Shown piece by piece: positions 462 to 46,966 of a DNA stretch of 47,371 nucleotides. The DNA comes from a virus, in IMG/VR virus record IMGVR_UViG_3300021178_000018, positions 1 through 47,371 of that record; one strand, written 5' to 3'. Every line of letters begins with the position of its first letter. Within the stretch, counting starts at the first letter, position 1. Below the pieces are notes generated by a model that was given only the letters and a program-made list of their open reading frames with translations, searched no databases and had not been told where the DNA came from. A program made the translations under genes and the position numbers.

Positions 462-1100
462 ATGCTCCCTCTCTGGCTCATCGTTTTGCAGTGCGTGTTC
501 GCGGGCCTCACTGTCGCCCAGAATTACCGGGGCGTCAAAACGGTTGTGGTCAGTGCTGCGCAGACGACCGAGCACACGGCAGTCAAGATTGCCGGGAAGA
601 AACCCCCGGCCCAGCCTCACTCTTTGGTTTATCCAGATCCGGTTCTCACGCCTTGCGCCACAGAGTTAGAGAAATGCCTCAATCCTTTAATCCACGCCAA
701 CATGGACCCGAAGGACCCGCACAACATCTGCTCGAAGAAATTCAAGACGGGCGACTATCGGGACACCACGCCAGCGATGAAGGCCGAAGCCTACCGTCGC
801 TATGGAGTGGAAAAAGGCAAAAGGGATTGCGCGTATGGCTGTGAGGTAGATCACGATATTCCGCTGGTCGCCGGTGGTGCCGACGTCATCCTGAACCTAT
901 GGCCCGAGCCAGCAGAACCCCGGCCTGGCTTTCACGAAAAGGATCATCTTGAGGACCACGTGAAGGTTATCGTTTGCGCGCTCCACACAACGCAACAGCG
1001 TCAAGCTGCCCTCGATGACTTCCGGCAGGACATCGCAACCGACTGGCTGGCCGCGTGCGTTAAATATAAGGTCAAGTGTGTGCCGCCGCCTGTCAATTAG
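462..1100 (+). CDS. Exported HNH-type nuclease
   Basis: A 212-residue protein. Residues 1-20 form a signal peptide or N-terminal anchor (LPLWLIVLQCVFAGLTVAQ). After a Pro-rich linker come several Cys residues and, from about residue 126, an HNH-like core: VDHDIPLVAGG, then NLWPE, then KDHLEDH. The His-Asp-His with Gly-Gly and Asn-Leu-Trp-Pro signature is known from small HNH endonucleases of phages and bacteria. It would act outside the cytoplasm, perhaps degrading DNA in the periplasm or blocking competing phage DNA; that role is inference. It follows 201-461 without a gap, and its end overlaps the next lipoprotein gene. A second, truncated copy lies at 47143-47371. Confidence 0.75.
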   Translation: MLPLWLIVLQCVFAGLTVAQNYRGVKTVVVSAAQTTEHTAVKIAGKKPPAQPHSLVYPDPVLTPCATELEKCLNPLIHANMDPKDPHNICSKKFKTGDYRDTTPAMKAEAYRRYGVEKGKRDCAYGCEVDHDIPLVAGGADVILNLWPEPAEPRPGFHEKDHLEDHVKVIVCALHTTQQRQAALDDFRQDIATDWLAACVKYKVKCVPPPVN

Positions 1101-1404
1101 CCTTCTACTGTTATCGCTCTCAGGCTGCGCTGGCCATCATTCCCCGTGGAAGGCGCCGGCGCCGATCATTGGCAGTCACTATGGATGCACGGTTAGGCCA
1201 ACGGATGTAAAGCAAACCGAGTTTCCCATTCGACAAGCTCAGGGCCATTCAGAAGTCGAATGGCAGGCAGAGGGCTGGACCGGCCATGGCGAGACGCGAG
1301 ATTGGAAAGAAGTGCTGTCCCGGCGCATCGGGCGACATGCCAGGCGGAAGAGTCTTTTAGACTGCGACCAGTTCATGGAAACGAACGAGCCTAGCCGCCG
1401 TTGA
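1078..1404 (+). CDS. Small lipoprotein
   Basis: A 108-residue protein starting at a GTG that overlaps the end of the nuclease gene by 23 bases in another frame. The N-terminus is basic, followed by a Leu/Ser-rich stretch and a lipobox (L-S-G-C, Cys17), so it should be an envelope lipoprotein. It lies between an exported nuclease and the lysis genes, so an outer-membrane spanin-like role is possible, but it is not Pro-rich like classical Rz1 proteins. A REP-like inverted repeat (1226-1263) lies inside the frame and encodes the segment around IRQAQGHSEVEW, which looks inserted. Its 3' end converges with the minus-strand gene 1391-1642 over 14 bases. Confidence 0.6.
   Translation: MCRRLSISLLLLSLSGCAGHHSPWKAPAPIIGSHYGCTVRPTDVKQTEFPIRQAQGHSEVEWQAEGWTGHGETRDWKEVLSRRIGRHARRKSLLDCDQFMETNEPSRR
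1226..1263. repeat. REP-like inverted repeat
   Basis: Perfect 9-base arms CCATTCGAC and GTCGAATGG flank a centre containing AAGCTCAGGG. The TTCGAC..GCTCAGGG core is shared with 9536-9560 and, as reverse complement, with 40531-40552. It lies inside the lipoprotein reading frame. Confidence 0.65.
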
Positions 1405-4356: not shown

Positions 4357-4733
4357 TTCCCGACGAAATCAAACCAATCAAAGGCCGCGGCGGCGCCGGC
4401 CGCGGGCAGGGGCGCAAGCCCAGCATTGCCAAGGTCGTTAAGGCCGCGATCGCACAGGCTGTATTTCGCATTTGGGGCGGCGAGGCTCAGGCGTGGGGCG
4501 CGTTAGCCCAAAAGATATCCGAGACCGGCGACCTGCGGCTTCTGTTCGAAGTGCTGCGGTACTGGACCGACCATGAACACGGCAAAGCGGGAATGCGCCT
4601 GGACGTAAGCGGTAAGATTGAGCATGAACACACCACCCTCGACGCCTATACCCCCGAGGAGCTCGAAAGTCTTAGACAGCTTGCGGAGATTGCCATCGCC
4701 CGCGCAAATTCTGGACGAGTGCTGCCGTCGTGA
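4353..4733 (+). CDS. terS: Terminase small subunit
   Basis: A 126-residue protein starting at a TTG that overlaps the stop of the recombinase. The N-terminus is basic and Gly-rich (KGRGGAGRGQGRKPS), as expected for DNA contact. A helical middle (IAQAVFRIWGGEAQAWGAL) and an acidic C-terminal tail (YTPEELESLRQLAEIAIAR) complete the usual small-subunit layout for DNA recognition and recruitment of the large subunit. It is identified by this architecture and by lying directly in front of, and overlapping, the large subunit. The exact family is not recognised. Confidence 0.7.
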   Translation: MIPDEIKPIKGRGGAGRGQGRKPSIAKVVKAAIAQAVFRIWGGEAQAWGALAQKISETGDLRLLFEVLRYWTDHEHGKAGMRLDVSGKIEHEHTTLDAYTPEELESLRQLAEIAIARANSGRVLPS

Positions 4734-5295
4734 TCCCTTATATTGGGCGCAGAACTGGACCAAAACCGAGAATCCGCACTACGTCCAGCAGGGTTTGGAG
4801 TTTCGCGCGCCGTTTCCGCGCAAAAGCTACTTCCGACCATTATTCGATGCCCTGAAAGAGGAAGAACGGCTTTTCATCTGCAAATCACGTGAGATGTTGA
4901 GTTCGTGGGCTGTGATGATATTTGCGGCTCATGAGGCCCAATGGTTCAAAGCTGAGGTTGTGGTTCAGACCGACAGTGAACAGAAGGCCAAAGAGTTGGT
5001 TTCGTATGGCGAATGCTTGTACCGAAACCAAGAAACATGGTTGAAGCAACTGCACCCGTTGAAGTCCGCAGCAAGCGCGCTCTCGATCGAGTGGGAGGAA
5101 GGCGGACGCATTTTCGGGATTCCTCACGGCCAGCACAAGCTACGTTTATTTCACCCAACAATCGTTATTTTTGATGAAGCTAGTTTCCTCCCGGAGTTTG
5201 AGGCTTGCTACAACGTGGCCCAGCCCGTCGCAAAGAAAATTATTGCCGTGAGTAGCGCAGGCCCCGGGGCGTTCGCCGATCAATGCTCAGTCTAG
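4618..5295 (+). CDS. terL: Terminase large subunit, ATPase half (split gene)
   Basis: A 225-residue ATPase domain of a phage large terminase, ending abruptly. Seen in order: DPLYWAQNW near the start, an Arg/Lys-type Walker A-like element (ICKSREMLSSWAVM), Walker B with catalytic Glu (PTIVIFDEASF, about residues 181-189) and the coupling motif IAVSSAGPG, followed by AFADQCSV and a TAG. Large terminases normally continue into an RNase H-like nuclease domain. Here that domain is encoded 4.3 kb downstream at 9561-10502 in another frame. The start is uncertain: TTG 4618 overlaps terS by 115 bases, and TTG codons at 4681 or 4690 would suit better. No frameshift or intein motif is seen at the break. 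Confidence 0.85.
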   Translation: MSMNTPPSTPIPPRSSKVLDSLRRLPSPAQILDECCRRDPLYWAQNWTKTENPHYVQQGLEFRAPFPRKSYFRPLFDALKEEERLFICKSREMLSSWAVMIFAAHEAQWFKAEVVVQTDSEQKAKELVSYGECLYRNQETWLKQLHPLKSAASALSIEWEEGGRIFGIPHGQHKLRLFHPTIVIFDEASFLPEFEACYNVAQPVAKKIIAVSSAGPGAFADQCSV

Positions 5296-5827: not shown

Positions 5828-7609
5828 ATGCGCAAACTAAGCGTATTCGCGCTGGTGTGCCTGTGCGTCATTACCGCGCGGGCTCAAACGCCGCCCCAGA
5901 ACTTCGGTGCAAGCAACGGCCCTCCGTCAGCGACTCTGCCCAACTCCGGCGTGGGAACACACTGGTTCGATACCGTGACCAACACGGAGTATGTCTGCAG
6001 CGCCGTGACGCTCGTTAACTCTCAGCCTACCTGCAGCTGGACAACAATCGGAGGCGCAACTTCCAATCCCTCCTCCCTCAACAACATCAAGTTTGCGAGC
6101 CAGTTTGCGGGTGGAGACTGCGGGGCAAAGATTAATGCCGCGGATACTGTTTTGGGTATCAAGGGCGGCCAGATTTGGGTGGATCATACCTGCGGAACGA
6201 CCTGGACAACCCAACCGGTGCTCCACAACTCTCTTGTCTTCGTTGATGATTTTCGCGCGAACCTTTCCGGATTGGCTTGTCCTCTCCTGGTCTCTGCTGG
6301 TGGGATTATCCTTCAAGGTTTGGGCCTTGATAATTCCAATGGCTCACAGATCGCCACTTGGATTGACGGCACAAATTGTACGGCTGGACTTGATGTCGTC
6401 TCCGTTCTGGGAACCACACCGAACCGTCTCGCAGGTGTCATCATCAAGGACATCTTTATTACCGGCGCAAACAACGCCCGCTATTGCCTCCGATTTGAAA
6501 AAGTGGACCTGCTCGACGTAGAACAGACCGAGATGAATAACTGCGCCACGGCAAATGTCTATGGGGTGGACAGCACCGGAGACTTTTTCAAGAACGATCG
6601 CTTCGCCACAATACCCGCGAATGGCTTGGTGCTGGACTGGGGTACGGGACAATTCACTGGCTCTGGTCTGATCTTTGAAAGCCAGGTCTGCGAGACGGGA
6701 CCGCAATTAACGATTCAGGGATCGGGATCGGGACAGAGTTTCTATGGAACGACCATGCAGGCGGACGGCTGCGGCGCCGGAACGTGGGCGGGATTCGTGC
6801 GCGTATCGGGATTCGATACCAACTCCGCTTTCGCGGGCGCGCCAACCGGCGGCGCTGGCGCTCCGGTAGGTCCGGGCTTTTACAATCTGAACGTGAACGT
6901 GGTGAATGGCGGAAATCCTACGCAGGGAGCAGATTTTCTATGTAATGGAACAGCGACGAATCCACCCCAAGATGTGACCCTTGTTCAGCCGCAAGACTTC
7001 GGAAGTTCGGTATCCAACATCGCCTTCAAGTCGGATAACTGCAAAGGCCTCAAGATCATCAGCGGGTTTTCCAATGGACACAGCGTAGCCACACTTAACG
7101 TCACAAATAATTCTTATTTCGCGCAAATGTTCGCGGTCACCTCTCTCGATACTGCGCGAACATCCGGCACAACCACCGGCATGGTTGACATTTACGAAGC
7201 GGTCAGCGGACAGGAACAACATTCCAACTCCATCCAATCCACGCTGATGCTGGCCAATCAAGGCACACCCTGCGCCAACGGCAACATCGCTCTGTCTGGT
7301 GGATGGGGAACCACGGCAGCCCCAACGGCAGCGGCGGGTACCGGCCAAACCTGTCAGTGGACGATTACCTCTAGCGGTACAGGTCAAGCGACGAACGCCA
7401 CGATTACTTGGACGCTACCTAATCCTCTGCCTGCTGCGACCACTGTTTGCAACGCGCACTTTCAAGGCGGCACTGGAATGGCAGCGTTATCTGGCGCTGG
7501 CCTGTTCATAAATCAGACCACACTGTCGGCTACTGCGCCCGTCTTCACGTGGGCCGGACTGCCGGTTGCAGGATCAACTTATCTCGTGCAATTACAATGT
7601 GGACCTTAG
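5828..7609 (+). CDS. Secreted beta-helix / tail-spike-like protein
   Basis: A 593-residue protein with a clear signal peptide (MRKLSVFALVCLCVITARA followed by Q). Next is a WFDTVTNTEYVC-type head, seen in phage fibre proteins that describe a product sheet. A Gly/Asn/Thr-rich body with alternating hydrophobic residues follows, typical of a right-handed beta helix, and the C-terminal domain is rich in beta strands. Cys residues are frequent, which fits an exported protein with disulphides. It could be a depolymerase or adhesin. As a virion fibre it would have to be assembled in the cytoplasm, which conflicts with a functional signal peptide. It lies within the 4.3-kb segment that splits terL. 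Confidence 0.6.
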   Translation: MRKLSVFALVCLCVITARAQTPPQNFGASNGPPSATLPNSGVGTHWFDTVTNTEYVCSAVTLVNSQPTCSWTTIGGATSNPSSLNNIKFASQFAGGDCGAKINAADTVLGIKGGQIWVDHTCGTTWTTQPVLHNSLVFVDDFRANLSGLACPLLVSAGGIILQGLGLDNSNGSQIATWIDGTNCTAGLDVVSVLGTTPNRLAGVIIKDIFITGANNARYCLRFEKVDLLDVEQTEMNNCATANVYGVDSTGDFFKNDRFATIPANGLVLDWGTGQFTGSGLIFESQVCETGPQLTIQGSGSGQSFYGTTMQADGCGAGTWAGFVRVSGFDTNSAFAGAPTGGAGAPVGPGFYNLNVNVVNGGNPTQGADFLCNGTATNPPQDVTLVQPQDFGSSVSNIAFKSDNCKGLKIISGFSNGHSVATLNVTNNSYFAQMFAVTSLDTARTSGTTTGMVDIYEAVSGQEQHSNSIQSTLMLANQGTPCANGNIALSGGWGTTAAPTAAAGTGQTCQWTITSSGTGQATNATITWTLPNPLPAATTVCNAHFQGGTGMAALSGAGLFINQTTLSATAPVFTWAGLPVAGSTYLVQLQCGP

Positions 7610-9560: not shown

Positions 9561-10502
9561 ATGGAAGTCACATTTCCCCACCCGGGGATGAGTTCCTGGA
9601 AGAACCCGCACGGCATCCGCATTCTGCGTCTTCACTACTCAGCCGATCCCGAGAAAACACCAGAATGGGCCGCCAAGCAAAAAGCGGAGATGACCAATCC
9701 CGCCGACTACGAGCAGGAATACGAGATCAACTTCTCGGCCAAACTCGGCACGCTGATCTATCAGCTTCACGATGAAGCCACGCTTGAACACTCATTCCCC
9801 ATCCCGGAAACCTGGACCCGGTACTTCGCGCTCGATCCCCATCCAGTTGTGCCTCACGCTGCCCTGTGGATCGCCGTTGATAAGTGGGGCGACGCCTGGA
9901 CCTATCGGGAACTATGGCCTAGCAAGATTTACGGACAAAGAGGCTCTATACCGGAGGATGACAACCGATTCTCGATCAAGCAGTTCGTCGAAACAATCCG
10001 ATGGCTCGAATCGAGAGAGAACCCGGAAAACGAAGGCCGCGACGAAGATATATACAAGCGAGTGATTGATTATGCAGCGCGGGCCATGGGCCAGGGATTC
10101 TTCGACGACAAGCCCGAGTACAACTTTCAGGAGCGCTTCGAAGAGTTAGGCCGCTGGCACTTCGACGATTCGATCAAGGATCACCAGGCCGGTTACGAGG
10201 CTGTGAACGAATGGCTGAAGCCACGCGATGTCGAACAGCCTGACGGCAGTTTCAAACCCAAATCGAGAGAGCACATCTTCCAAGATAAGTGCCCTGAGTA
10301 TGTCTACGAACTCAAGACTAATCGCTTTCAGCAACTCACGCCCTTGATGTCAGAGCGCTCAGACCCCACGGGAAAGCCTATGGCCAAACGGAATCACCTA
10401 ACCGACTGCCGCAGATATCTAGCCATGGCCGGGCTTGAATACATTCCCCATCGCAGATTGCAAAGCACCTGGAAACCAATCGCCAAAGGAGTGAACTACT
10501 AA
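9561..10502 (+). CDS. terL: Terminase large subunit, nuclease half (split gene)
   Basis: A 313-residue protein matching the C-terminal part of a large terminase. It has the linker ILRLHYSADPEKTPEW, the block YEQEYEINFSAKLGTLIYQ, then the RNase H-like nuclease strand YFALDPHPVVPHAALW with its first Asp, further acidic residues in the middle, and the C-terminal NHLTDCRRYLAMAG. The linker block normally follows the SSAGPG motif by a few tens of residues, so this is the missing part of 4618-5295. The ATG at 9561 directly follows a REP-like hairpin. No strong ribosome site is seen; GAGG-like bases are absent and only AGGG lies in the hairpin. Both halves look intact, so function in trans is plausible. 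Confidence 0.85.
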   Translation: MEVTFPHPGMSSWKNPHGIRILRLHYSADPEKTPEWAAKQKAEMTNPADYEQEYEINFSAKLGTLIYQLHDEATLEHSFPIPETWTRYFALDPHPVVPHAALWIAVDKWGDAWTYRELWPSKIYGQRGSIPEDDNRFSIKQFVETIRWLESRENPENEGRDEDIYKRVIDYAARAMGQGFFDDKPEYNFQERFEELGRWHFDDSIKDHQAGYEAVNEWLKPRDVEQPDGSFKPKSREHIFQDKCPEYVYELKTNRFQQLTPLMSERSDPTGKPMAKRNHLTDCRRYLAMAGLEYIPHRRLQSTWKPIAKGVNY

Positions 10503-16336: not shown

Positions 16337-16762
16337 ATGGCTCTTTGCTCCAACTGCGGCTCGGAGGGAACGCGCGTCCGCTCCCGCTGGAATGCCGAAG
16401 GCGTGCAACTGCCCGATCAGTGTCCGATCTGTGACCCCGGCAGCTTCGAGAAGTTCACCGCCCCATCCGACAAGAAGATTTGGATGGGCTTCGAGGCCAA
16501 TCCCAACGAATACGAGAAGCGCTACGACGCGAACGGCGTCTATTACGTGCGCAAGCCTGAGTACGTCGCCGAGCAGGAACAGCGGCTCATGCAAGCGACC
16601 GAAGAGGAACTGGAAAAGCAGCAAAGGGCGGTAGCCCAGAAACGCGCCACACGCAGAACGACGCCGATGGATTCAGCGGAACAAGCCGCAGCTTTGCGAA
16701 AAGCCGAACAGATCGCCGACTGGATACTGGCATCGGCGGCACGGGGAAGAGATGTCAACTAA
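16337..16762 (+). CDS. Zinc-ribbon hypothetical protein
   Basis: A 141-residue protein starting directly after the previous stop. The N-terminal Cys pairs LCSNCGSEG and CPICDPGSF form a likely zinc ribbon; a middle segment reads KKIWMGFEANPNEYEKRY. A long charged helix (EQEQRLMQATEEELEKQQR) and C-terminal helix follow. It shares the order zinc ribbon then coiled coil with the gene before it. The function is unknown. Its 3' end overlaps the end of the minus-strand gene 16759-17355 by four bases. Confidence 0.65.
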   Translation: MALCSNCGSEGTRVRSRWNAEGVQLPDQCPICDPGSFEKFTAPSDKKIWMGFEANPNEYEKRYDANGVYYVRKPEYVAEQEQRLMQATEEELEKQQRAVAQKRATRRTTPMDSAEQAAALRKAEQIADWILASAARGRDVN

Positions 16763-17355
16763 ACGCTGCGGCGACCCTCGAACTTCGGCTCATCCCATAC
16801 GTCGATGTAATAGCGGATTCCGCCGTAGACCATGACGAGGAACGGATCGGGATTGGCTTGCAGAAAATCAACCTCAAAGGTGGCGTGCGGCAATTCCTCT
16901 TTCAGTTCTATGGCCCGAGACAGCGCAAATTCTGGAATTGGACTCGCGTATTTCTCGATACGGCTGCTAACCCACTGGTGACCCCACGGACAGTTGGCAA
17001 ATTTGTATTTCGCAACCTTGGTGGCATCCAGAGGATCAAAGCCTAGTTTGGCAAACGCCTGCGCTGCTTCCCACGCACATCTTTCATCGGATTCTTTCTT
17101 GTCGATCACGTCAGAAAAATGCTTATAGCCAAGAACTTTCGCAGCGCGAGAGGCAAGCGAGCGACGCTCCCTGCTAATCGACTCTTGGGGTTCGACAGCG
17201 ACAAGTTGCGTTCTAACTAAAGTGTCCTTTGCGACTGGCTCTTTTGGCGGGGGCGCGTTCTGGAGTTGCTGAATCATCTGTGTGTAGGGATTAACCGCAG
17301 CTTGAGCTTGACCGATCAACCCTTGAAACTGCGCAGCCCCGAGCATTCCACTCAT
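16759..17355 (-). CDS. Hypothetical protein encoded antisense in the structural operon
   Basis: A 198-residue minus-strand gene with an excellent ribosome site (AAAGGAG, eight bases before the ATG at 17355), so it is expressed. The N-terminus is Gln/Ala/Pro-rich; the C-terminal two thirds look folded (CAWEAAQAFAKLGFDPLDA, ANCPWGHQWVSSRIEKYA, DPFLVMVYGGIRYYIDVWDEP). No family is recognised. It faces two plus-strand structural genes and is divergent from the glycosyltransferase gene starting 33 bases away. An independently regulated accessory gene, or one exchanged between phages, is likely. Confidence 0.7.
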   Translation of the reverse strand: MSGMLGAAQFQGLIGQAQAAVNPYTQMIQQLQNAPPPKEPVAKDTLVRTQLVAVEPQESISRERRSLASRAAKVLGYKHFSDVIDKKESDERCAWEAAQAFAKLGFDPLDATKVAKYKFANCPWGHQWVSSRIEKYASPIPEFALSRAIELKEELPHATFEVDFLQANPDPFLVMVYGGIRYYIDVWDEPKFEGRRSV

Positions 17356-24650: not shown

Positions 24651-26187
24651 TCTTCTCGGCAGCATGACAAATCCCGGCGTCCAGTCGCCCGGCGGCGGTT
24701 CGCAATTCTTCGATCCGTCGCAGGTCCAGTCTGGAGCCATGGCCAAAGCCCTCACTCCGCAGCCGGGGAGTCTCCAGCCGCAGGGGACCAACAATCCCCA
24801 AGGCGCGCCTCCTCCGATGCCGCAAGCGGTACACCCATCGTTTCTGCAAGCGACCCAGATGGGCGAATCGACTCCTGGAGCGGTAAATGCCATGTCTCCA
24901 GGCCTATCGAAGGCCGGAAAACTGGTCACGCTTCTGACCGGCGGCCTCAAGGGAGCCATGGCGGGAGAGGCGGCAAGCGCACAAGCCGTGCAACAGAGCG
25001 GCGGTCGCCGCGGCGGAAACGTCGGCAGCGGATTCCAGGCCGGGTATCAGGAACCAATCCAAGAGGCCATGCGCGGCCAGCAGTTGAAACAGGCCGAGGC
25101 TCAGACTCAGTTAACGCAAGCACAAGGCCAAATGGTCCCCACGCCCTACGGCATGATGCCGGCGGCGCTCGCGCGGTTTATCCTGCCAGCTTCGATTAAA
25201 GAACAGGGAGCGGAAAAAGTTCAGGGCATGAAAGGCGGGACGGCGGAAGCGGTTCAGGGCGAGAAGGGCCAAACGGCATTGCAGGTCGCCGGAATCAATA
25301 AGCGCTTCATGACTGTTCCGAACGTGGGATTAATCGACACGGCGACTCGGCAAGTAGTTCCCGGAAGCGAGCAGGGCATCCCGGTGAGTCCCGAGATCGC
25401 AAATGATTATGGATTGCCCAAGGAATATATCGGCAAGCCGTTGCCTCTCAGCGTATTTTCCGGCCTGGAACGTGGTCAGGATTTCCAAAACAAGACCGTC
25501 GAGGGAGCCGGCGGTCCGGCAGTAGTGAATACCAGAACGAAGGAAGTTACACCGCTCAATCTTGGCAATCCCAGCCAGGGACGCCCGACGCAGGTTGCCG
25601 ACCCGGATAACCCGGGAAACACGAAGTTCGTAACCGGCGGACAGGCCATCCAGAGCGGCGCGGCCGGCCCGCAATCGGCCGCGGTCCAGGTTCCGCGAGC
25701 CGCCGAGAAAGCCGCGATTCCGACCAAGATTGGCGATCAGAAGGTCGCATTCAATACGGCCATGGCCCATGCGGACCTGTTAAAGCAGGCCATGACCGCC
25801 CTAAACAACGGCGACGTGCGCACCTTGAACTCTCTGAAGAATCGCTTCAAGACGGAGTTCGGCTCTCCCGACGTGACCAACGCTCAGGCGATAACCAACG
25901 CCTATTCCCGTGAAATCACCAAGATGCTGTCAGCCGGGCACATGACCGATGCGGAGATCGGCTCATCCGGCGCCACGATGCCCACCAACGCCAGCCCGCA
26001 GCAAATGCTGGGAGTGCTCGACGCTTACAAGAATCTGGCCGCCTCCAAGATGAAGAATTTGCAGGGCCAGGTCGATACAGCGGTGAGCGCATCGCAACCG
26101 AAGAAGGAGGGGCAGCAGCCTAGCGGTCCGATTCCGCAGGGCGCGACACACATCTGGACGCCGCAAGGATTGCAGCCAACCCGATGA
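24643..26187 (+). CDS. Internal virion / ejection-like protein
   Basis: A 514-residue protein beginning inside the end of the previous gene. The first 150 residues are Pro/Gly/Gln-rich. The middle is Gly/Val-rich with likely beta structure (YGLPKEYIGKPLPLSVF). The last third is helical (KVAFNTAMAHADLLKQAM, YSREITKMLSAGHMTDAEI). It ends SGPIPQGATHIWTPQGLQP, a WxP-type tail seen in several phage internal proteins. Position between tail hub and fibre genes fits an ejection protein. No enzymatic motif is seen. Confidence 0.6.
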   Translation: MGSLLGSMTNPGVQSPGGGSQFFDPSQVQSGAMAKALTPQPGSLQPQGTNNPQGAPPPMPQAVHPSFLQATQMGESTPGAVNAMSPGLSKAGKLVTLLTGGLKGAMAGEAASAQAVQQSGGRRGGNVGSGFQAGYQEPIQEAMRGQQLKQAEAQTQLTQAQGQMVPTPYGMMPAALARFILPASIKEQGAEKVQGMKGGTAEAVQGEKGQTALQVAGINKRFMTVPNVGLIDTATRQVVPGSEQGIPVSPEIANDYGLPKEYIGKPLPLSVFSGLERGQDFQNKTVEGAGGPAVVNTRTKEVTPLNLGNPSQGRPTQVADPDNPGNTKFVTGGQAIQSGAAGPQSAAVQVPRAAEKAAIPTKIGDQKVAFNTAMAHADLLKQAMTALNNGDVRTLNSLKNRFKTEFGSPDVTNAQAITNAYSREITKMLSAGHMTDAEIGSSGATMPTNASPQQMLGVLDAYKNLAASKMKNLQGQVDTAVSASQPKKEGQQPSGPIPQGATHIWTPQGLQPTR

Positions 26188-27212
26188 GCACGCAGCCGCT
26201 TCCAATTCAGGGCCAGCAACCGGCATCTCCCAAATGGCTCGTCCAAGCCCCGGATAGCAAGGTCATTCAGTTTCCCGACGAGTTCACCGATGCTGACGTC
26301 ACGCGCGAGATGTCGAAGATGTACCCCACTCCCACCACCGCCAACAATCCGGTTGAGAACGCGGCCCCAAAGCCTTACTACGGATTCGGCGCAAGCAATC
26401 TCGCCGGGCAGGCATGGCAGGGAGTCAAGGACGTTGCGGGCGGCGCGTATCAGATGGGCAAGGACGTTCTCTTTCCTCAAGGGAACACCGAAGGCCAGCG
26501 TCTCAGCTTCCTGGCTCACAAATACGTCACCGATCCGCTAAAGCAACAGCAGCAAGAGGCTCAAGCATCTCCGACGACGTCCGAAAGGCTAGGCCATACA
26601 GCGGCATCCTATCTGCCCTTCATTGGCCCGATGGCCGCGAACCTCGGACAGCAGGCCGGTAGCGGAGATGTAGGCGGGATGTTCGCGCGCGGCGCCGGAC
26701 AAGTCGGAACTGCGATGGCGGGAAGTGCCGCACTCCAAGGCGCTGGGGATGCCGTCGGCGCTGGGCGAGCGGCCTTGGGCAAAGCATCGTACACGCCCGA
26801 GGGAGTGTTGAAACCGCTGCCAAAGGTTGTGAGCAAGGCCGGGGGAGCGGCAATCGGCTCGGCAGTCCATCCTGGAGCCGGCCTGTTAGGCTATGTCCTC
26901 GGCCCCGAAGCCTACAAAGCAATATTCCCGAATCCGATTGCCGACGATCTCGCGCAAGCCAAATTCATGAATCAGGGATACAGGCCCGCTGAGCCGTCCA
27001 TACTCTCCCGCACGACACCGCCGCTTCTGGGCACCGGAGAAGATGCCGCGCCGTTACGCCCGACTGTCGGCACGCCGGAAGAGTGGGCCGCTTACGATCA
27101 GAGAATGGGAAACCTTAAAGCTGAAGCAAGCGATGCCGGAACCTATTCGGCGGCTCGCGGTAAGGCCGGGAAGAAATTGAACTACCAGCAGAGGATCGGG
27201 AAAACTTACTGA
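26184..27212 (+). CDS. Internal virion-like protein with FPDEFTDADV motif
   Basis: 342 residues overlapping the upstream stop (ATGA). The N-terminus has IQFPDEFTDADVTREMSKM, a short motif common near the start of phage internal or transglycosylase-type virion proteins (form: I.FPd.mtdaei). The rest is Gly/Ala-rich with several hydrophobic stretches (MFARGAGQVGTAMAGSAAL, GAAIGSAVHPGAGLLGYVL) that could span a membrane during ejection. No catalytic residues of a lysozyme are recognised. It closes the cluster of ejection-like genes. Confidence 0.6.
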   Translation: MSTQPLPIQGQQPASPKWLVQAPDSKVIQFPDEFTDADVTREMSKMYPTPTTANNPVENAAPKPYYGFGASNLAGQAWQGVKDVAGGAYQMGKDVLFPQGNTEGQRLSFLAHKYVTDPLKQQQQEAQASPTTSERLGHTAASYLPFIGPMAANLGQQAGSGDVGGMFARGAGQVGTAMAGSAALQGAGDAVGAGRAALGKASYTPEGVLKPLPKVVSKAGGAAIGSAVHPGAGLLGYVLGPEAYKAIFPNPIADDLAQAKFMNQGYRPAEPSILSRTTPPLLGTGEDAAPLRPTVGTPEEWAAYDQRMGNLKAEASDAGTYSAARGKAGKKLNYQQRIGKTY

Positions 27213-27363: not shown

Positions 27364-29892
27364 ATGGGCCAAACACCTCCTAAATACTTTATGCCCCCGT
27401 CTCCCTACGGAGCCTCGCAGGGAACCAACGTCGTCAATCCCGCGCAGTCGGCGCCCACAACTCCGCAATCCGCCACTCTTAATGGCGGACTATTGCCGAC
27501 GAACTTCGGGCAGTCCGCCAATCTGAATGGCGGACCGCAGAGTCCCGTCCCGCAGCCGCCGCAAGCCCCACAGCCCTTGCAAAGTCCAATGCAGCCAAAC
27601 CCCCAGTCGCAACTTATGAGGACCAGGGGGTTCTTTGGCGGCCTGTTTGTCCTGGTTCTGCTGTTTACTCCTGGCGCTTTTGCCACAACATCGGTCACGG
27701 GACGCATTCAAAACTTAGGAACCGGCAATGTCACCAGCGCTGCCTTCGTTCGGTTCTGGCTGCGAGGCTGTGCAGGCAATCAGCCGCGGGTGAATGGGAC
27801 CTCGATCATCGGCCCCACGGCCGGAGGCGTGTTTTTCTTCGATATCAGCGCGGACTCGAGCGGCAACATCTCCGGCACGCTCTATTCGACGCGCGACAGT
27901 ACGGGCTTACTTGGCGGGGATATCGAATGCGGAGGCTCCAAGCTGGGAGTCTGGTATGGGATGCAGGCATTTGTGGGCGGCAAGGGAGGCCCGGAAGTTG
28001 CTGTTCATGCCAAGAACGGCGTTGTTCTGGACATCACTAGCGTCACGCCTATTACCACCAATCCCGTCAACCCGGCCCCGACCGGAGACTCGACTTACTG
28101 TCGCTTGGATGGCGGCAATGGGCCTTGCGGAACTGGCGCGCCCGCGGGTATCAGATTGACCCCGCAGAGTTATACCGGCGCCGGCGTCAACATCCCTTTT
28201 TCGAGAGCCTATCGCAATATCGCTTATGCCGGACAAGTGCAGGCCAGCGGAGGAATCGGACCGTACACATTCTCGATATCTTCGGGTTCATTGCCTGCCG
28301 GAGTATCGCTCGGGTCTTGCACCGCCGTTGCCAGCACTTGCCCTCTCACGGGCACTCCATCGGCGTCTTCGGTGTTTGGGGTCATCAACAGCTTTGTGAT
28401 GCGGGTGGTCGATTCGGTCTCCAACGTGTTTACGATGCCTCTGACGATCACCGTCTATCAGACCAATACCGTTGTGGGCAGTCCCGCCTCGCAAAGCATC
28501 GCCCCCTTGGCAACCTTGCAGATGGCGGCCATGGCCAACGAAACAGACGGCGCTGCGCTCCCCGTAACCACGATGGCAGCTTGGGCCTCTACTGCAGGTG
28601 CCACGGTTGGAGCGAGTACGGGCCTCGTGACGGCTGGCGGGGGAGCTGCCACACCCTCGATCACAGCTGCCTTTGACGGCATCACCTCCGCGGGAGTGAC
28701 CGTCACAGTGACGGGCGCATCGACGACCTTCGCTTGTTCTGGCGTGGTGACGGCAACTTTACAGACGGCCCTCAATACCGCTGCGGGTCTCGGCAAGACT
28801 CTGGAGATCACCGCAGGCAGTTGCACGACCGGCCCTCTGACCATTCCTGCAAATACCAGCCTGCTGATCGATACCGGAGTGACCATCTCGGACATCGCCG
28901 GTTACGGGATAACCGACAACATGCTGGAGATCAATACCGGACCCGTCACCATCTCGTGCACGGGAGCGGCTTCAACCTGCGTGTTCAAGATGCCGCTGTC
29001 TCAAGCACAAAGCATCGTGGACGGCAGTCAGTACCGGCATTGCCTGGCGATCGGCTATAACGCGCATGGCGCCGCGGCCTCAAATGTCACGATTTCCGGG
29101 ATCTCCTGCAATCAGTCGGGCGGCGATGGAGTTCTGATCGACTCGGCAACCAACGTCACCATCCAAAACTCGCTGTTCGATTCCAATTACCGCAACGGCG
29201 GGAGCATTGTGGGGACTGTGAACCACATCAATATCACCGGGAACCACTTCACCAACTCGAACGGCACGCTGCCCAAAAGCGGGTTCGACATCGAGCCGAA
29301 CCTGGCGACGAACTCGATCCAGGATGTGAACCTGACCAACAACTTCACCGACACCAATGGCGGCGACGGCCTGAACATCAGCCTGCAAAACCTCACCTCT
29401 GCGTCTGCGGCAGTGGCCATCACGGTTTCCGGGCACCACAGTGACGGGAATGGGCGCTACGGATATGTGGCCATCAACAACGATCCCACCAATCCCATGG
29501 GCACGGTTCTGATTCAAAACTCGTTTAGCTCGGGCGATGGAAGTTTCGGAGCCATCGGGCGTTTCTGGCAGGACGGGGGAGAGTTTCTGCACTTCGACAA
29601 GCTGACCGTCGCCAACTCTCACGCCCTCGGTCCCGATCCGGCTTACTCCTCGAGCGCGGCAGTGGGAGCGATTCGCGGCGGGGGCGTCACGGCGAACATG
29701 GGCAATATCTCGTTCACCGGGACGATCATTACAAGTTCCAACGGCATGATGGATCACTACTTCGATTTCGAGGACTACGCCCACATTGGAATCGCGCATG
29801 ACACCTTCGATCTTGCGGGGACAAGAAGCGGAGCCACCGCGGCACCGCCCAATGGCTTGCTGAACGGCGTGGGAGTCTCACAACTGCCTTAA
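27364..29892 (+). CDS. Tail-spike-like protein: Ig domains and beta helix, buried signal peptide
   Basis: 842 residues. Residues 1-83 are Pro/Gln/Asn-rich. A signal-peptide-like segment then starts at Met84 (RTRGFFGGLFVLVLLFTPG followed by AFA-TTS). After it come a beta domain, a putative-Ig (He_PIG) domain (YAGQVQASGGIGPYTFSI), a second Ig-like domain, and a right-handed beta helix with DGVLIDSATNVTIQNS and FDIEPN repeats of the pectate-lyase type. The helix is paralogous to that of 29902-30996. It may bind or cleave a surface polysaccharide. An internal signal peptide suggests either a fusion of two genes or initiation at Met84. Confidence 0.7.
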   Translation: MGQTPPKYFMPPSPYGASQGTNVVNPAQSAPTTPQSATLNGGLLPTNFGQSANLNGGPQSPVPQPPQAPQPLQSPMQPNPQSQLMRTRGFFGGLFVLVLLFTPGAFATTSVTGRIQNLGTGNVTSAAFVRFWLRGCAGNQPRVNGTSIIGPTAGGVFFFDISADSSGNISGTLYSTRDSTGLLGGDIECGGSKLGVWYGMQAFVGGKGGPEVAVHAKNGVVLDITSVTPITTNPVNPAPTGDSTYCRLDGGNGPCGTGAPAGIRLTPQSYTGAGVNIPFSRAYRNIAYAGQVQASGGIGPYTFSISSGSLPAGVSLGSCTAVASTCPLTGTPSASSVFGVINSFVMRVVDSVSNVFTMPLTITVYQTNTVVGSPASQSIAPLATLQMAAMANETDGAALPVTTMAAWASTAGATVGASTGLVTAGGGAATPSITAAFDGITSAGVTVTVTGASTTFACSGVVTATLQTALNTAAGLGKTLEITAGSCTTGPLTIPANTSLLIDTGVTISDIAGYGITDNMLEINTGPVTISCTGAASTCVFKMPLSQAQSIVDGSQYRHCLAIGYNAHGAAASNVTISGISCNQSGGDGVLIDSATNVTIQNSLFDSNYRNGGSIVGTVNHINITGNHFTNSNGTLPKSGFDIEPNLATNSIQDVNLTNNFTDTNGGDGLNISLQNLTSASAAVAITVSGHHSDGNGRYGYVAINNDPTNPMGTVLIQNSFSSGDGSFGAIGRFWQDGGEFLHFDKLTVANSHALGPDPAYSSSAAVGAIRGGGVTANMGNISFTGTIITSSNGMMDHYFDFEDYAHIGIAHDTFDLAGTRSGATAAPPNGLLNGVGVSQLP

Positions 29893-29901
29893 AGGAGCAA
29901 A

Positions 29902-30996
29902 ATGAAAACAGCTCGCTATACCACAGTCAATGCAGCGAGTCCGCTGTGGCGGACATTCCTATTTGCGATTCTGGCGGCTGTACCCGCCTTCGCCCAGCAC
30001 TCGGTGACAGTGCCATATCAAGGTAACTCAACCACGACTACCGCGACGGCCCCTGGAAGCGTGACCATCACTATTCCCGCAGGATGCACGTTCGCTAATT
30101 TGACCGTGACGTGCCCGACGATTCCTCCGACCCCGCCGACTCCGCCTCCCGGCCCCGCCCGCACCAAGTTCGCTCCCACTGGCGGGAACGATCAGCCTGC
30201 GCTCTATGGCTTGGCGGCCAAAGGTCCGGTCGAAGTGACGCCGGGAATCCTCAAGCTGTCTACGTCGACGCTGCCCAATGGCGCGGATATTTACTTTGAC
30301 GATGGCGTGACCGTCACAGACTTCGCGGCCTATCAGGGCTGGTCGCATGGGTTCGCCATTGACGGAAACCAGAACATCACTTTGGCCGGAAGCGGATCGC
30401 CAACGGCTGCTGTATTTCAAATGCCCCTGACCTTCGCTCAAGGGAACATCCAGAATAACTGTGTGTGGATCGAGAACTCTTCGAACGTCCTGATCTCCGG
30501 TTTGCGATTTACGAAGTGCGGCGAGGACGGCATTTATATCGGTAATGGCGCGGCGCACGTCCACGTCACCAAGGTCCATTCGACCAACAATTTGCGCAAC
30601 GGGTTAAGCATCACCGATAAAGTGACGGACATTCTGGTCGATTACAGCTTTTTCAACGGAGCGCAGAATCTCGCCGGCGGAATTGCGGATGGCGTAGATA
30701 TCGAGCCGAACGGCCCGAGCGAAGGCAATCCGATTCCGGGCCAGTTCTCGAAGCAAGTCGTCCTCGATCACAACGATTTCAGCGGGAACGCGGGAGACGG
30801 TTTGTGTTCGTGCCTGTACTTCACTGCTCCCAATACGCCGCGCGACTTCACCTACACCAACAACACCTCGACCGGCAACGGCCTGAACAACTTCAACGCG
30901 AACGGCCCGCAGGGCGGCGTGAAGCAAAGCGGGAATAGCTGGCAGACTTCGCTGAAGGCCAAAGCCAAAGTGACGAAGCCCATTCCCTTGCACTAA
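29902..30996 (+). CDS. Secreted pectate-lyase-like beta-helix protein
   Basis: 364 residues with AGGAG before the ATG. The signal peptide has a longer N-region (WRTFLFAILAAVPAFAQ cleaved near residue 32). A Thr-rich strand region and a Pro linker (PPTPPTPPPGP) follow, then a beta helix: NCVWIENSSNVLISGLRF, CGEDGIYIGNGAAHVHV, GVDIEPNGPS, DHNDFSGNAGDGL. Blocks such as VFQMPL and VDIEPN are shared with 27364-29892, so the two are paralogues. It could be an exported polysaccharide lyase. Whether it is in the virion or released from the host is open. Confidence 0.65.
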   Translation: MKTARYTTVNAASPLWRTFLFAILAAVPAFAQHSVTVPYQGNSTTTTATAPGSVTITIPAGCTFANLTVTCPTIPPTPPTPPPGPARTKFAPTGGNDQPALYGLAAKGPVEVTPGILKLSTSTLPNGADIYFDDGVTVTDFAAYQGWSHGFAIDGNQNITLAGSGSPTAAVFQMPLTFAQGNIQNNCVWIENSSNVLISGLRFTKCGEDGIYIGNGAAHVHVTKVHSTNNLRNGLSITDKVTDILVDYSFFNGAQNLAGGIADGVDIEPNGPSEGNPIPGQFSKQVVLDHNDFSGNAGDGLCSCLYFTAPNTPRDFTYTNNTSTGNGLNNFNANGPQGGVKQSGNSWQTSLKAKAKVTKPIPLH

Positions 30997-31983: not shown

Positions 31984-32424
31984 ATGGCCGGCGAAAAGGG
32001 CAACACAAACAGCATCAATTATCTGAAGCTCGTGTTTCAGGCGGTCGCCTGGTCGAAGGTGGCCGACAATGCCGCGACCACGCCCTACACGAACCTTTAC
32101 GTCAGCCTGCACACCGCCGATCCCGGCGCAACTGGCCTGCAAACCACGTCCGAAGCCGCCTATACCGGCTATGCGCGCGTTGCGGTAGCGAGAACTTCCG
32201 GTGGCTGGTCGATATCGGGAGAAACCATCTCGAACGTGGCTGCGATCACCTTTCCCGCAAGTACGAGCGGACCTGAAGTCGAAACCTTTGTGGGCGTAGG
32301 CACCGACAGCAGCGGCGGTGCTGGAACCCTTTTGTGGGCCGGCCCTTTGAGCTCTTCGCTCACCGTCAACAACGGCATCACGCCCTCGTTTGCCATCGGC
32401 GCTCTGACGATCACCGAGGGATAG
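31984..32424 (+). CDS. Phage tail-fibre-type protein
   Basis: 146 residues. The pattern YTNLYVSLHTADPG, then SEAAYTGYARVAVARTS, W.ISG, NVAAITFPAST and VGVGTDSSGG is typical of a conserved phage tail-fibre protein family of about 130-150 residues (sometimes called gp80-like). It probably forms part of the tail tip or a fibre base. Ribosome site AAGGAG precedes the ATG. The TAG stop overlaps the GTG of the next gene. Confidence 0.7.
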   Translation: MAGEKGNTNSINYLKLVFQAVAWSKVADNAATTPYTNLYVSLHTADPGATGLQTTSEAAYTGYARVAVARTSGGWSISGETISNVAAITFPASTSGPEVETFVGVGTDSSGGAGTLLWAGPLSSSLTVNNGITPSFAIGALTITEG

Positions 32425-33434
32425 TGAAGCGATTTGCTCTGACCCTCGGATTGCTCTTCTGTGCCGGCCCAGCCTTCGCCGCCACTTGCAGCAATACCAC
32501 TTTCACGAGCACGGTCATTAAGTGTATTCAGTCCACCTCGACCGATTGCACGGCGTTGCTTGATTGCTCCATCGCCTATCCGGCGAGCCCGGGGATCGGG
32601 CACACCCTTCTAGTCGTCTGCGGCGCATATCAGTACACGAGCAATGCCAATGCGATCGCGGCTACTGAGGCGGTCAATGACAGCGCGACACAAGCAAACA
32701 CCTGGACCACCGCTTTAACTCCGGGCCTCTGGGCCAGTGGAGGGGCGCTGGGAAGCACCGTCCAGGACTCAAAAGAAGGCGCGTTCGTAGCCACGGCCAA
32801 AGCAACCGCCGCCGATACACCTCATTGTGTAACCGCAAGCGGCGGCACTCCAGCCACGTTGTTCATGGTGATTTACGAGCTATCGAGCGTAAACGGAACC
32901 ATCGCGGTAGATGCTTCGGCAGCTATGGTCGATGGGGCTGGGGTCGGAACGACAACCTGTCCATCAGGGAACATGACCCCAGCCAAGAACGGCGACATGC
33001 TATTCGGATATTGCAATTACGGGGATGGAGGCATCACCACGGCGGGCAGCGGCTGGACTGAGATTGATACCGGCGTGGTTGGCCAGGGTAAGGGACAACT
33101 CACCGCTGCGACCGTAAATTCCGTGTGGGTAGCGGCCTCCATGTCGCATTGGGTAGCCGGAGCGATAGCCTTCAGCGATGGAACCGCCGTCTCTTCGACC
33201 GTTCCCGGATGGCCTGGCCGCACTACAGGTCCGTCTTTCGCTATCTCTATTCTGATCGGGATTCTGATTGGAGTGGGCTATGGGCAATCTTTGGACCGTT
33301 ATTTGCGTGGCGCTGGGAGCGTGGCTTGGAATTACCCTGGTCAAGATCAACCCGCTCTTGGCTCGCCTGTTATCGACCTTGTTCCATCGGCTGATGGAAG
33401 CTATCAGGCAGTCGTTCGCGCGGAAAGATCGTAA
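32424..33434 (+). CDS. Secreted beta-rich protein with C-terminal hydrophobic helix
   Basis: 336 residues from a GTG overlapping the upstream TAG. The signal peptide KRFALTLGLLFCAGPAFA is followed by a Cys/Thr-rich beta domain (TLLVVCGAYQYTSNANAI, PATLFMVIYELSSVNGTI, VAGAIAFSDGTAV) reminiscent of exported adhesin-like proteins. Near the end is a hydrophobic stretch (SFAISILIGILIGVGYG), possibly a membrane anchor. The last 150 bases overlap another apparent gene (33280-33453) in a different frame. The role is unknown. Confidence 0.55.
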   Translation: MKRFALTLGLLFCAGPAFAATCSNTTFTSTVIKCIQSTSTDCTALLDCSIAYPASPGIGHTLLVVCGAYQYTSNANAIAATEAVNDSATQANTWTTALTPGLWASGGALGSTVQDSKEGAFVATAKATAADTPHCVTASGGTPATLFMVIYELSSVNGTIAVDASAAMVDGAGVGTTTCPSGNMTPAKNGDMLFGYCNYGDGGITTAGSGWTEIDTGVVGQGKGQLTAATVNSVWVAASMSHWVAGAIAFSDGTAVSSTVPGWPGRTTGPSFAISILIGILIGVGYGQSLDRYLRGAGSVAWNYPGQDQPALGSPVIDLVPSADGSYQAVVRAERS

Positions 33435-34702: not shown

Positions 34703-35098
34703 ATGAAAAAACTGATCGTCTTATTCGCAATGATCGCGGCCTTTTCGGCCTCGTCCTTCGCCCAGATTCCTCAAGGCTCGGCTCATCACGAAGCGACCTT
34801 GACCTGGAATCAGGATGTGGGAGCGACCGGGTTTAATGTCTACAGATCGCTTCTGCCTGGGGGGCCGTTTGCGGTGATCAGCACGGCGCCGGTTCCCGAA
34901 CCGCCCTCGACTAGCACGACTCTTCCCAGCTTCATTGATGTGAATGTGGTGCAGGGGACGACTTACTCCTGGTGCGTGACGGCTCTGGCTACGATCAGCA
35001 CGGGAGTTTTCGAGACGGCTTGCAGCAATGTGGTGACGGTGAAGGTCCCAAACGACCCTATCGGCCCCCCTGGTGGCCTTTCCGTAGTCGCGCAGTGA
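34703..35098 (+). CDS. Secreted fibronectin-III domain protein
   Basis: 131 residues with GGAG upstream of the ATG. Signal peptide KKLIVLFAMIAAFSASSFA followed by Q. One FN3 domain: HHEATLTWNQDVGATGFNV, YRSLLPGGPFAVI, then FIDVNVVQGTTYSWCVTAL and SNVVTVKVPN. Exported FN3 proteins bind polysaccharide or protein partners; the Acidobacteriota-like signal peptide supports export by the host. It is the last gene of the long plus-strand structural operon and converges with a minus-strand gene five bases away. Confidence 0.65.
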   Translation: MKKLIVLFAMIAAFSASSFAQIPQGSAHHEATLTWNQDVGATGFNVYRSLLPGGPFAVISTAPVPEPPSTSTTLPSFIDVNVVQGTTYSWCVTALATISTGVFETACSNVVTVKVPNDPIGPPGGLSVVAQ

Positions 35099-39032: not shown

Positions 39033-39143
39033 AAGCGCCCCCTCTCTTCCAGAGGGGACGGCTCCGGGGGCCAGCACACCGTTCGGGAGTGTTTACCACA
39101 ACAGCATATACCGTGCAAGTCAACAGATTGTCGGGAATTGGTA

Positions 39144-39383
39144 ATGGGCGAAGGCAAGAAGACGGAGCGAACCGACATGCCCAAGCAGTTGCGCACCGAT
39201 TCCGAGCTGGCCGAGGACATTCGTTTTATCGCCCGCATGAATCGCCGCCAGATCACGGAGCAAGTGTTGGTGTGGATCGAGGAAGGCGTAAAGGAAGATA
39301 AGCGCAGATTCAGTCAGGCCGCGTCAGGTGCAGAGCCCATCGCAGTCAGATCAAGTCAGGAAGCGTCAAGGAAAATGGCATGA
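39144..39383 (+). CDS. Second ribbon-helix-helix-like protein
   Basis: 79 residues from the ATG at 39144; ribosome site weak. TDMPKQLRTDSELAEDIRF and ARMNRRQITEQVLVWIEEG match the helix-helix part of the Arc-like fold, preceded by a possible strand; the tail is Ser/Ala-rich. It heads the string of tiny overlapping genes at 39380-41071. It could regulate those genes or antagonise the first repressor. Confidence 0.55.
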   Translation: MGEGKKTERTDMPKQLRTDSELAEDIRFIARMNRRQITEQVLVWIEEGVKEDKRRFSQAASGAEPIAVRSSQEASRKMA

Positions 39384-39586
39384 CCAGGAATTCCTACATA
39401 CACAAAACAGGTGAGGGCGCCTTGCTAGGGGGGCAGGGAAGGGCAAGCCGTGTAGACGGCCCTGCTCCTCTGGCACCAACCTCCATGCTCGCCACCTGGA
39501 ACCGCTGTTCCTGGCGCGAGAAGGTCTGGATCGTGGTCCTGGGGGCGCTGATTCTGGAGGGGCTGTTTGTGGTGATGGCGATATGA
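39380..39586 (+). CDS. Small membrane protein, copy 1
   Basis: Open from an ATG overlapping the upstream stop (ATGA), 68 residues. The conserved part, shared with 40338-40589, starts only at the ATWNRCSWREKV block, so the ATG at 39485 (33 residues) is an alternative start. The end is one membrane helix (VWIVVLGALILEGLFVVMA). First member of the duplicated string of genes; overlaps the next by ATGA. Confidence 0.55.
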   Translation: MTRNSYIHKTGEGALLGGQGRASRVDGPAPLAPTSMLATWNRCSWREKVWIVVLGALILEGLFVVMAI

Positions 39587-39873
39587 CATATCAAGAATTC
39601 CTCGACGCCCTGCGAAATACGCCGCGAGATTGGTGCTTAACTTCCGATGGAAGAATACGCAGGGCCAACACCAAACGCTCAGCCCAATGCCCAATTTCCT
39701 CGCTCTGCGGATTAGGCTCCGGAGACTTTGAAGAGGCGGCGAAGAGAATCGGATTGGACAGTGAACTAGCGTGGACGTTTGTGTGCGCGGCCGACGATCC
39801 TGACCGGGATGCGCCAACTAATTTAATTCGCCGCGATCTGCTGGAAGCGTGCGGATTAAAGGACATCGCATGA
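39583..39873 (+). CDS. Hypothetical protein (cassette B1)
   Basis: 96 residues overlapping its neighbours by ATGA at both ends. MTYQEFLDALRNTPRDWCL, then SDGRIRRANTKRSAQCPIS and LAWTFVCAADDPDRDAP; the L(R/K).TPRDW...G.IR form recurs in short phage proteins of unknown role. It occupies the slot that in copy 2 of the duplication is taken by the unrelated gene 40586-40810. Confidence 0.6.
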   Translation: MTYQEFLDALRNTPRDWCLTSDGRIRRANTKRSAQCPISSLCGLGSGDFEEAAKRIGLDSELAWTFVCAADDPDRDAPTNLIRRDLLEACGLKDIA

Positions 39874-40129: not shown

Positions 40130-40341
40130 CCCACGTCCAGATACCCAAGAGGCCCCGAGGGTCGCCGCGGGCGACGAAGAGTTTCCCGACCGCCGGCGCT
40201 CTCACGAAATGCGCGACTCCTGGCTGTGGCCATCCCTGGAACAAGCATCACGGGGAATGTACGGTGTGGGTAGTCGATAAGCTCGATCGGGGCAAGAAAG
40301 GCCGTTTCTGCCGCTGCCAGCAGTTCCGTGAGGCGAAATGA
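40126..40341 (+). CDS. Small zinc-binding protein, copy 1
   Basis: 71 residues: a basic N-terminus (THVQIPKRPRGSPRATKSF), then CATPGCGHPWNKHHGEC and GRFCRCQQF. The Cys/His order C...CGH....H...C...C.C..F is shared with 7612-7794. Copy 2 (40994-41071) has lost this zinc part. Its stop overlaps the ATG of the next gene. Confidence 0.6.
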   Translation: MTHVQIPKRPRGSPRATKSFPTAGALTKCATPGCGHPWNKHHGECTVWVVDKLDRGKKGRFCRCQQFREAK

Positions 40342-46405: not shown

Positions 46406-46966
46406 GTGAAGAATAAGAAATTTCTAGCAGTTGCATTGTGCTGCACGCTCGGAATCGGCGGCTGTACGACCGCCAGCGTCATCTCCAAGATCGAGCAGTG
46501 GGAACCCGTCATCGCCAAGGGTTTCAACTACATCGTGGCGATTCTGCAGCAAGACGGAGTAATCACCAACGGAGCGAGCCTGACCACCGACGCCGCCAAG
46601 GTCAGCGCAGGGATTGGCGACCTGACGAGCGATATCACCGCAGCGCAGGCTTCAAGCTCGGCCGCAACAGGAGCGCTGAACAAGATCATTGCGGTTCTGG
46701 GCTCATTGCAGAATGATCTCGGCCAGCTTCAGACCGACATCCCCGGAGGCGTTCCCGCCAACGACGTGCAGGACATCAAGCAAAGCCTCGGAGGGCTGAG
46801 TCTTGCGCTTGCGGCTTTCCAGGCCGAACTGACTCCGGTCGCATCTCTGCCGCTCGGGCAGCAGAAGAAAGCCCTGGCCAAGATCGCCGTACCCGATCTC
46901 GTTGCTTTCAAAAAGTCCTGGAATCAGATTCAGATAACGCATAATCACCCGGAGAAACAACTCTGA
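46406..46966 (+). CDS. Small lipoprotein, complete copy
   Basis: 186 residues from a GTG at 46406 with GGAGG before it. Signal peptide KNKKFLAVALCCTLGIGG and lipobox I-G-G-C give an envelope lipoprotein. The mature part is Ala/Ser-rich and helical (IAKGFNYIVAILQQDGV, DVQDIKQSLGGLSLALAAF). Its C-terminal 66 residues recur at 1-201. It may sit in the outer membrane and affect infection by other phages, or belong to lysis. The next gene overlaps its stop. Confidence 0.7.
   Translation: MKNKKFLAVALCCTLGIGGCTTASVISKIEQWEPVIAKGFNYIVAILQQDGVITNGASLTTDAAKVSAGIGDLTSDITAAQASSSAATGALNKIIAVLGSLQNDLGQLQTDIPGGVPANDVQDIKQSLGGLSLALAAFQAELTPVASLPLGQQKKALAKIAVPDLVAFKKSWNQIQITHNHPEKQL

Follow-up and report, generated by a model that had tools for sequence, protein, structure and literature searches.

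The fibres of tailed phages are taken as being made and attached in the cytoplasm, and known tailspikes and pyocin fibres are assembled there. For five fibre-like proteins encoded by the IMG/VR virus record IMGVR_UViG_3300021178_000018 (47,371 bases, analysed as a whole and hereafter called the window), we propose a different route, namely that they are probably exported by way of Sec signal peptides; the genes are referred to by their start positions as 5828, 27364, 29902, 32424 and 34703. Passage through Sec and disulfides are known from filamentous-phage virion proteins such as pIII, but filamentous phages assemble at the membrane, whereas the capsid protein and terminase of the window are those of a tailed phage. 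Lambda Lom/Bor-type morons are phage genes with signal peptides among the morphogenesis genes; the genes described here differ from them in being large, fibre-like and hypervariable and in standing also in fibre position.

In the tail protein families phrog_1640, phrog_13893 and phrog_38237 an N-terminal domain (N-domain) is followed by a beta-helix and a tip, and the same order appears in contig G017 (see below). We read these three families as T7-like fibres; PHROGs names the first two 'tail protein'. As in tailspikes, PF12708 or PF13229 is matched by some members of the families described below. Phage proteins exported via Sec signals are described in PMC3765740 and PMC8951688, namely the signal-peptide (SP) and signal-arrest-release (SAR) endolysins; those are lysis enzymes, whereas the proteins here appear to be fibre-like structural proteins, and no muralytic Pfam or PHROG match was found in the five window proteins. 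Signal peptides have been counted in two Bacteroides phages, in the accessible part of that report not identified as fibres (PMC5723332). Our search of the open-access literature, which had subscription papers and preprint servers outside its scope, turned up no account of Sec signals on the fibres of a tailed phage.

The original prediction had pointed to signal peptides at all five genes and asked for their formal prediction. Run with a rule-based caller and its nulls, this was positive for the five window genes, and each protein starts with a basic n-region, a hydrophobic core and an A-x-A-type cleavage site (Table 1). Clear Shine-Dalgarno sites lie upstream of 29902 and 34703, the start of 32424 overlaps the stop of the preceding gene, and 5828 is preceded by a weak purine stretch only. 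The relative of 29902 in contig G001 has a signal peptide too, and so has a weak homologue of 34703 (29%) in the same contig.

The window encodes terminase parts, a capsid protein and a Gp80/phrog_240-type protein along with homologues of large genes common to its relatives. These relatives were selected via the capsid protein (80-91% identity), independently of signal peptides, and the main set comprised eight contigs: seven capsid-selected ones including the window, and G001, selected via its 29902 relative. For comparison we used 80 loci selected via the Gp80-like gene 31984 and, as a second set, five named or deposited phage records. Contigs G015-G021 were selected for the C-terminal domain (C-domain) of 5828, hence they are a biased sample. 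Among genes of at least 300 amino acids (aa) a signal peptide was called in 17/103 across the main set, in seven of the eight contigs; in the eighth, G009, it sits in a fused 27364-type gene, further in than the search reached. The Gp80-selected loci gave 5/346 (in 4 of the 80 loci; Fisher p 4e-8 against the main set), the named or deposited records gave one of 63 large genes, this not being a gene annotated as fibre, and the biased set gave 13/79.

As to the background of the caller, at any score it was positive at 62/6940 internal positions and in 238/11800 shuffles; with the later threshold of at least 4, one positive came up among 1707 start codons lying inside large genes of the related contigs. 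Within the window 7/59 genes were positive at their first start, where 37420 and 44711, called at scores below 4, look like noise, and three further genes were positive at alternative starts (1015, 27364 and 40338). We regard it as strongly supported that the predicted signal peptides are present, conserved and far above background. A search for the same trait in other soil phages, also proposed at the outset, found it recurring in independent contigs from many samples. Large genes with signal peptides were further seen in phages selected only via the Gp80-like gene (L123:1778-4437, L134:5706-7301 and L114:3334-6207), and outside this clade the trait may be sporadic.

The signal peptide of 27364 had been described as buried, and it proved to mark a genuine gene start, in front of which a small open reading frame (ORF) that is separate in relatives has been fused on. 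In G008, G013 and G014 the first residues of the homologue are those of the signal peptide, and its start codon overlaps the stop of the small ORF, which indicates a fusion and not an accident in the window; the fused form is shared by G002, G003 and G009, and in G009 a good ribosome-binding site precedes the internal start. The small ORF is itself rich in proline and glutamine (P/Q-rich) and conserved (KYFxPxxPYG...), and in G008, G013 and G014, where it is a gene of its own, it is translationally coupled. All nine 27364-type proteins examined carry a signal peptide; they come from seven contigs, from L077 and from the bacterial contig L080. These signal peptides vary in sequence and keep the form of K/R, hydrophobic core and A-x-A-type end, while the domain that follows is 60-66% identical (A2). 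Total length ranges from 245 to 1472 aa in phages with a capsid protein identity of 80-91%, and a gene in fibre position with a conserved N-part and a variable C-part was found in the 27364 family only. Podovirus-like genomes keep fibres after the internal protein genes, and the 27364-type gene is placed there. The AlphaFold2 (AF2) model of its N-domain reached a predicted local distance difference test (pLDDT) score of 52, too low for a fold search.

The sole bacterial match to this N-domain among 84,980 bacterial and archaeal genomes was in a metagenome-assembled contig titled Terriglobales. This lone 27364-type signal-peptide gene (L172:1362-3422, G022 contig 221) lies 1.4 kb from the contig end, on a contig that also encodes MnmE, YidC, DnaA and DnaN, and is possibly a domesticated gene, a prophage remnant or a chimeric contig end.

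Exported disulfide proteins tend toward even cysteine numbers. The count depends on where cleavage is predicted; among mature signal-peptide proteins of 300 aa or more it was even in 28/30 cases against 57/114 for the other large proteins of the same contigs (Fisher p 6e-6); a looser caller and a limit of at least 150 aa gave 40/46 against 147/283. The median cysteine content was 2.04% (n = 37) and 0.76% (n = 151), respectively, for proteins of at least 300 aa. All five mature window proteins have even numbers (Table 1), and the other three fused 27364-type genes have 6, 14 and 8 cysteines. The odd exceptions were G001 10533 (13) and G014 934 (19), of which the latter turns even if cut before QQ instead of as a lipoprotein. 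Of the four cysteines conserved in the C-domain alignment (A3), the sequence L014 keeps the last two but neither of the first two, a joint loss that is expected if the cysteines form pairs. As even counts are a mark of disulfides, export of these proteins is probably real, as far as sequences can tell. The Terriglobales genome G022 encodes VKOR and DSBA family proteins, both of which are disulfide-making.

In contig G017 the signal peptide is followed at once by a known N-terminus of virion type: starting right after the site predicted for cleavage, residues 23-136 of this C-domain protein match the phrog_1640 'tail protein' at positions 2-115, and PF12708 comes next. The same pairing of signal peptide and N-domain was found in two further phages, L071 (score 3.48) and L072 (signal peptide judged by eye). 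G017 was the only match in a PHROG search of seven large signal-peptide proteins, or parts of them, from relatives, and tblastn of its N-domain against 50,697 phage records gave no match. Compared with phrog_1640-type tail proteins, the domain in G017 is preceded by a signal peptide and has a cysteine pair; phrog_1640 had three matches in 396 Acidobacteriota genomes, and the one with the N-domain (L082) lacks both the signal peptide and the two cysteines found in G017.

The 5828 protein consists of its signal peptide, an unmatched body without a Pfam beta-helix match, and a C-domain of 115 aa. This C-domain occurs in nine further distinct IMG/VR soil-phage proteins with unrelated bodies, and a signal peptide was called in 7/7 C-domain proteins of G015-G021; elsewhere the signal peptide of L002 was a call made by eye, and the sequence of L007 is truncated at the N-terminal end. 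In the 84,980 bacterial and archaeal genomes 43 pattern matches to the C-domain were obtained, none of them confirmed, and tblastn of 5828 against the 50,697 phage records gave no match. Among solved structures the AF2 model of the C-domain best matched the C-terminus of the Dettilon tailspike (gp208; Z 7.2, 117/124 residues), the C-terminus of the R1 pyocin fibre ranking fourth (Z 6.5). Beta-helix tailspikes and tips, including the R1/R2 pyocin fibres, are thus among the best matches, all of them weak (Z below 8), and enzymes and other fibre heads rank nearby. With Foldseek the C-domain had no match in the PDB at E 0.001 and a best E of 2.8e-3 in BFVD. A region of 5828 with two cysteines (GTHWFDTVTNTEYVC...CSWT) recurs in G003 17463 and G008 24651 and is similar to a common fibre module. 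Whole capture of host exoproteins was rejected as an origin because the C-domain was seen only in viral contigs, and it is also disfavoured by the single bacterial contig holding the 27364 N-domain.

In the window and G008 the 5828-type gene is found upstream of the terminase C-part. In G003 it sits between terminase and portal, whereas G002, G013 and G014 have it between portal and scaffold; portal and scaffold are assigned from size and gene order. The large terminase is apparently split, with an N-part that matches PHROG and a C-part that is our own reading without a PHROG match lying 4.3 kb apart (window 4618-5295 and 9561-10502); the split is also seen in G002 (29516-30217 and 25808-26749) and G014 (39085-39783 and 43153-44139). 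Nearly all large fibre-like genes of G008 and G014 carry a signal peptide, hence the receptor-binding protein is most likely among the signal-peptide proteins.

This phage group probably infects Acidobacteriota. The window capsid protein had two distant matches in the 396 Acidobacteriota genomes (28% and 24%, the former being prophage G176), and in the neighbourhood of these matches the caller gave no large fibre with a signal peptide, so the trait does not seem general in Acidobacteriota phages.

Table 1. Features of the window, with cysteines counted in the mature chains. A slash marks the predicted cleavage site, and 'caller' marks features called by the rule-based caller.
Position	Strand	Feature	Details	Basis
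5828..7609	+	Signal-peptide fibre-like protein	593 aa, 16 cysteines	
5828..5884	+	Signal peptide of 5828	19 aa, MRKLSVFALVCLCVITARA/Q, ARA/Q	caller
7235..7606	+	C-domain of 5828	Four cysteines, AF2 pLDDT 79	
27364..27615	+	P/Q-rich upstream small ORF	In-frame fusion here	
27616..29892	+	Signal-peptide fibre gene proper of 27364	From Met85; conserved N-domain, beta-helix match below Pfam cut-off, 12 cysteines	
27616..27684	+	Signal peptide of 27364 gene	23 aa, from Met85, MRTRGFFGGLFVLVLLFTPGAFA/T, AFA/T	caller
29902..30996	+	Signal-peptide protein	364 aa, right-handed beta-helix (PF13229 at cut-off), 6 cysteines	
29902..29994	+	Signal peptide of 29902	31 aa, ...FAILAAVPAFA/Q	caller
32424..33434	+	Signal-peptide protein	336 aa, 8 cysteines	
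32424..32480	+	Signal peptide of 32424	19 aa, MKRFALTLGLLFCAGPAFA/A, AFA/A, GTG start	caller
34703..35098	+	Signal-peptide protein	131 aa, 2 cysteines	
34703..34762	+	Signal peptide of 34703	20 aa, MKKLIVLFAMIAAFSASSFA/Q, SFA/Q; caller preferred position 15	
31984..32424	+	Homologue of Gp80-type fibre I / phrog_240 head protein	No signal peptide, within fibre cluster; control query	
46406..46966	+	Lipoprotein-like protein	GIGG/C; further predicted exported product	caller
1015..1404	+	Lipoprotein-like protein	From internal GTG, SLSG/C	caller

We tentatively suggest that these are tail-fibre or tailspike proteins which are exported by Sec, stapled by disulfides and joined to the virions at lysis, a reading to which we would give somewhat less than an even chance. 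Its parts differ in strength: judged from the sequences, the pairing of cysteines is strongly supported, export is well supported and the presence of putative fibre-type domains in the mature chains is supported, while attachment to the virion after export is what we infer. The proteins would be synthesised as Sec preproteins, exported by the host Sec machinery and relieved of their signal peptides by signal peptidase; in the oxidising periplasm the mature chains would fold and acquire their disulfides, and at lysis the finished fibres would meet virions that had been put together in the cytoplasm and attach to their tails. The signal peptide would in this way give the phage disulfide-stapled fibres, out of reach of the reducing cytoplasm. 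Since lysis frees cytoplasmic proteins anyway, a signal peptide pays only for periplasmic folding or for action before lysis; the cysteine evidence favours a need for periplasmic folding, and a role in the virion is favoured by the tail domain kept at the N-terminus. With a little more reserve we speculate that virion building could be divided between two compartments, the cytoplasm for heads and tails and the periplasm for the cleaved, disulfide-bonded receptor-binding fibres, with the parts joined at lysis, and that the fibre genes might have gained Sec signals and cysteine pairs in adapting to Acidobacteriota hosts or to acidic soil.

The original prediction was that the infected cell exports these proteins and that they serve as something other than virion fibres. 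The former is supported by the signal peptides, conserved in their presence and not in their sequence, and by the paired cysteines. The latter found no support in view of the tail domain after the G017 cleavage site, the weak tailspike and pyocin likeness of the C-domain and the fibre genes of G008 and G014.

Several points speak against exported virion fibres. Tailed virions assemble in the cytoplasm, and we know of no tailed phage that attaches exported fibres. No PHROG match, including no tail-fibre match, was found for the five window proteins, and the signal peptide of G017 scores 3.48, below the later threshold. At Z below 8, and with enzymes among the matches, the likeness of the modelled C-domain may perhaps reflect merely a common arrangement. 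Further, 32424 has a second hydrophobic stretch near its C-terminus (residues 272-290), which could anchor the exported protein in the membrane, and the shifting place of the 5828-type genes among the head genes fits extra cargo as well as fibres.

Some of these points lend weight to the alternative contained in the original prediction, a real possibility in our view, that the exported proteins are not part of the virion and act at or outside the cell surface as polysaccharide-degrading enzymes, adhesins or receptor-masking copies of the receptor-binding protein that block superinfection. Such proteins would share the signal-peptide and cysteine evidence, the beta-helix matches suit enzymes, and both the hydrophobic stretch of 32424 and the mobility of the 5828-type genes agree with them. 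However, G017 retains a whole virion-type N-domain behind its cleavage site, which has no obvious use in a free enzyme, hardly any large fibre candidates would remain in G008 and G014, and the C-domain, unconfirmed in the bacterial and archaeal genomes, is not a common host exoprotein domain.

The 5828-type gene standing at three different places among the head genes of the relatives would also suit lysogenic-conversion cargo, that is morons expressed from the prophage which alter the lysogen surface, as would the lone 27364-type gene in the Terriglobales chromosome contig and the tyrosine-recombinase gene of the window. We consider this unlikely, as that recombinase (PF00589) was found in 3/15 contigs (G000, G013 and G014), so lysogeny does not explain the whole set, and contigs without it (e.g. 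G002, G003 and G008) have the same signal-peptide genes, although fragments could hide an integrase. Still more improbable is a hydrophobic N-terminus that stays uncleaved and either anchors the protein in the membrane or plugs it into the tail: the P/Q-rich stretch fused ahead of the hydrophobic segment in the window, G002, G003 and G009 would give a type-II topology if the whole ORF were translated, but the segments have A-x-A-type sites at their ends, in most cases followed by Q or T, the gene begins at the signal peptide itself in G008, G013 and G014, and the canonical domain of G017 begins exactly behind the site. That the pattern comes from chance, from wrongly chosen starts or from faulty assembly we find hardly credible given the internal-start null of 1/1707 and the recurrence in independent contigs of many samples, even though gene starts are predictions and the signal peptides come from a rule-based caller.

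Other features of the window are noted here for completeness. The 1015 lipoprotein-like protein is possibly an outer spanin, its function being guessed. About 200 bases are near-identical at the two window ends (1-200 and 46766-46966), encoding the C-terminus of the 46406 lipoprotein, and diverge beyond. The 212-aa protein at 462-1100 has a hydrophobic N-terminus without basic residues, followed by 8 cysteines; it contains a CEVDHDIP motif, had no Pfam match and is possibly an exported nuclease. A 198-aa ORF on the minus strand (16759-17355) lies within the otherwise plus-strand structural cluster, and the small ORFs at 39380-39586 and 40338-40589 both contain ATWNRCSWREKVWIVVLGAL and the end EGLFVVMAI, a partial duplication.

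If true, a clade of tailed phages with Sec-routed fibres would change the view of virion assembly, fibre stability and lysis timing, and the combination of a signal peptide with an even cysteine count would offer a sequence test for such fibres in uncultured viruses.
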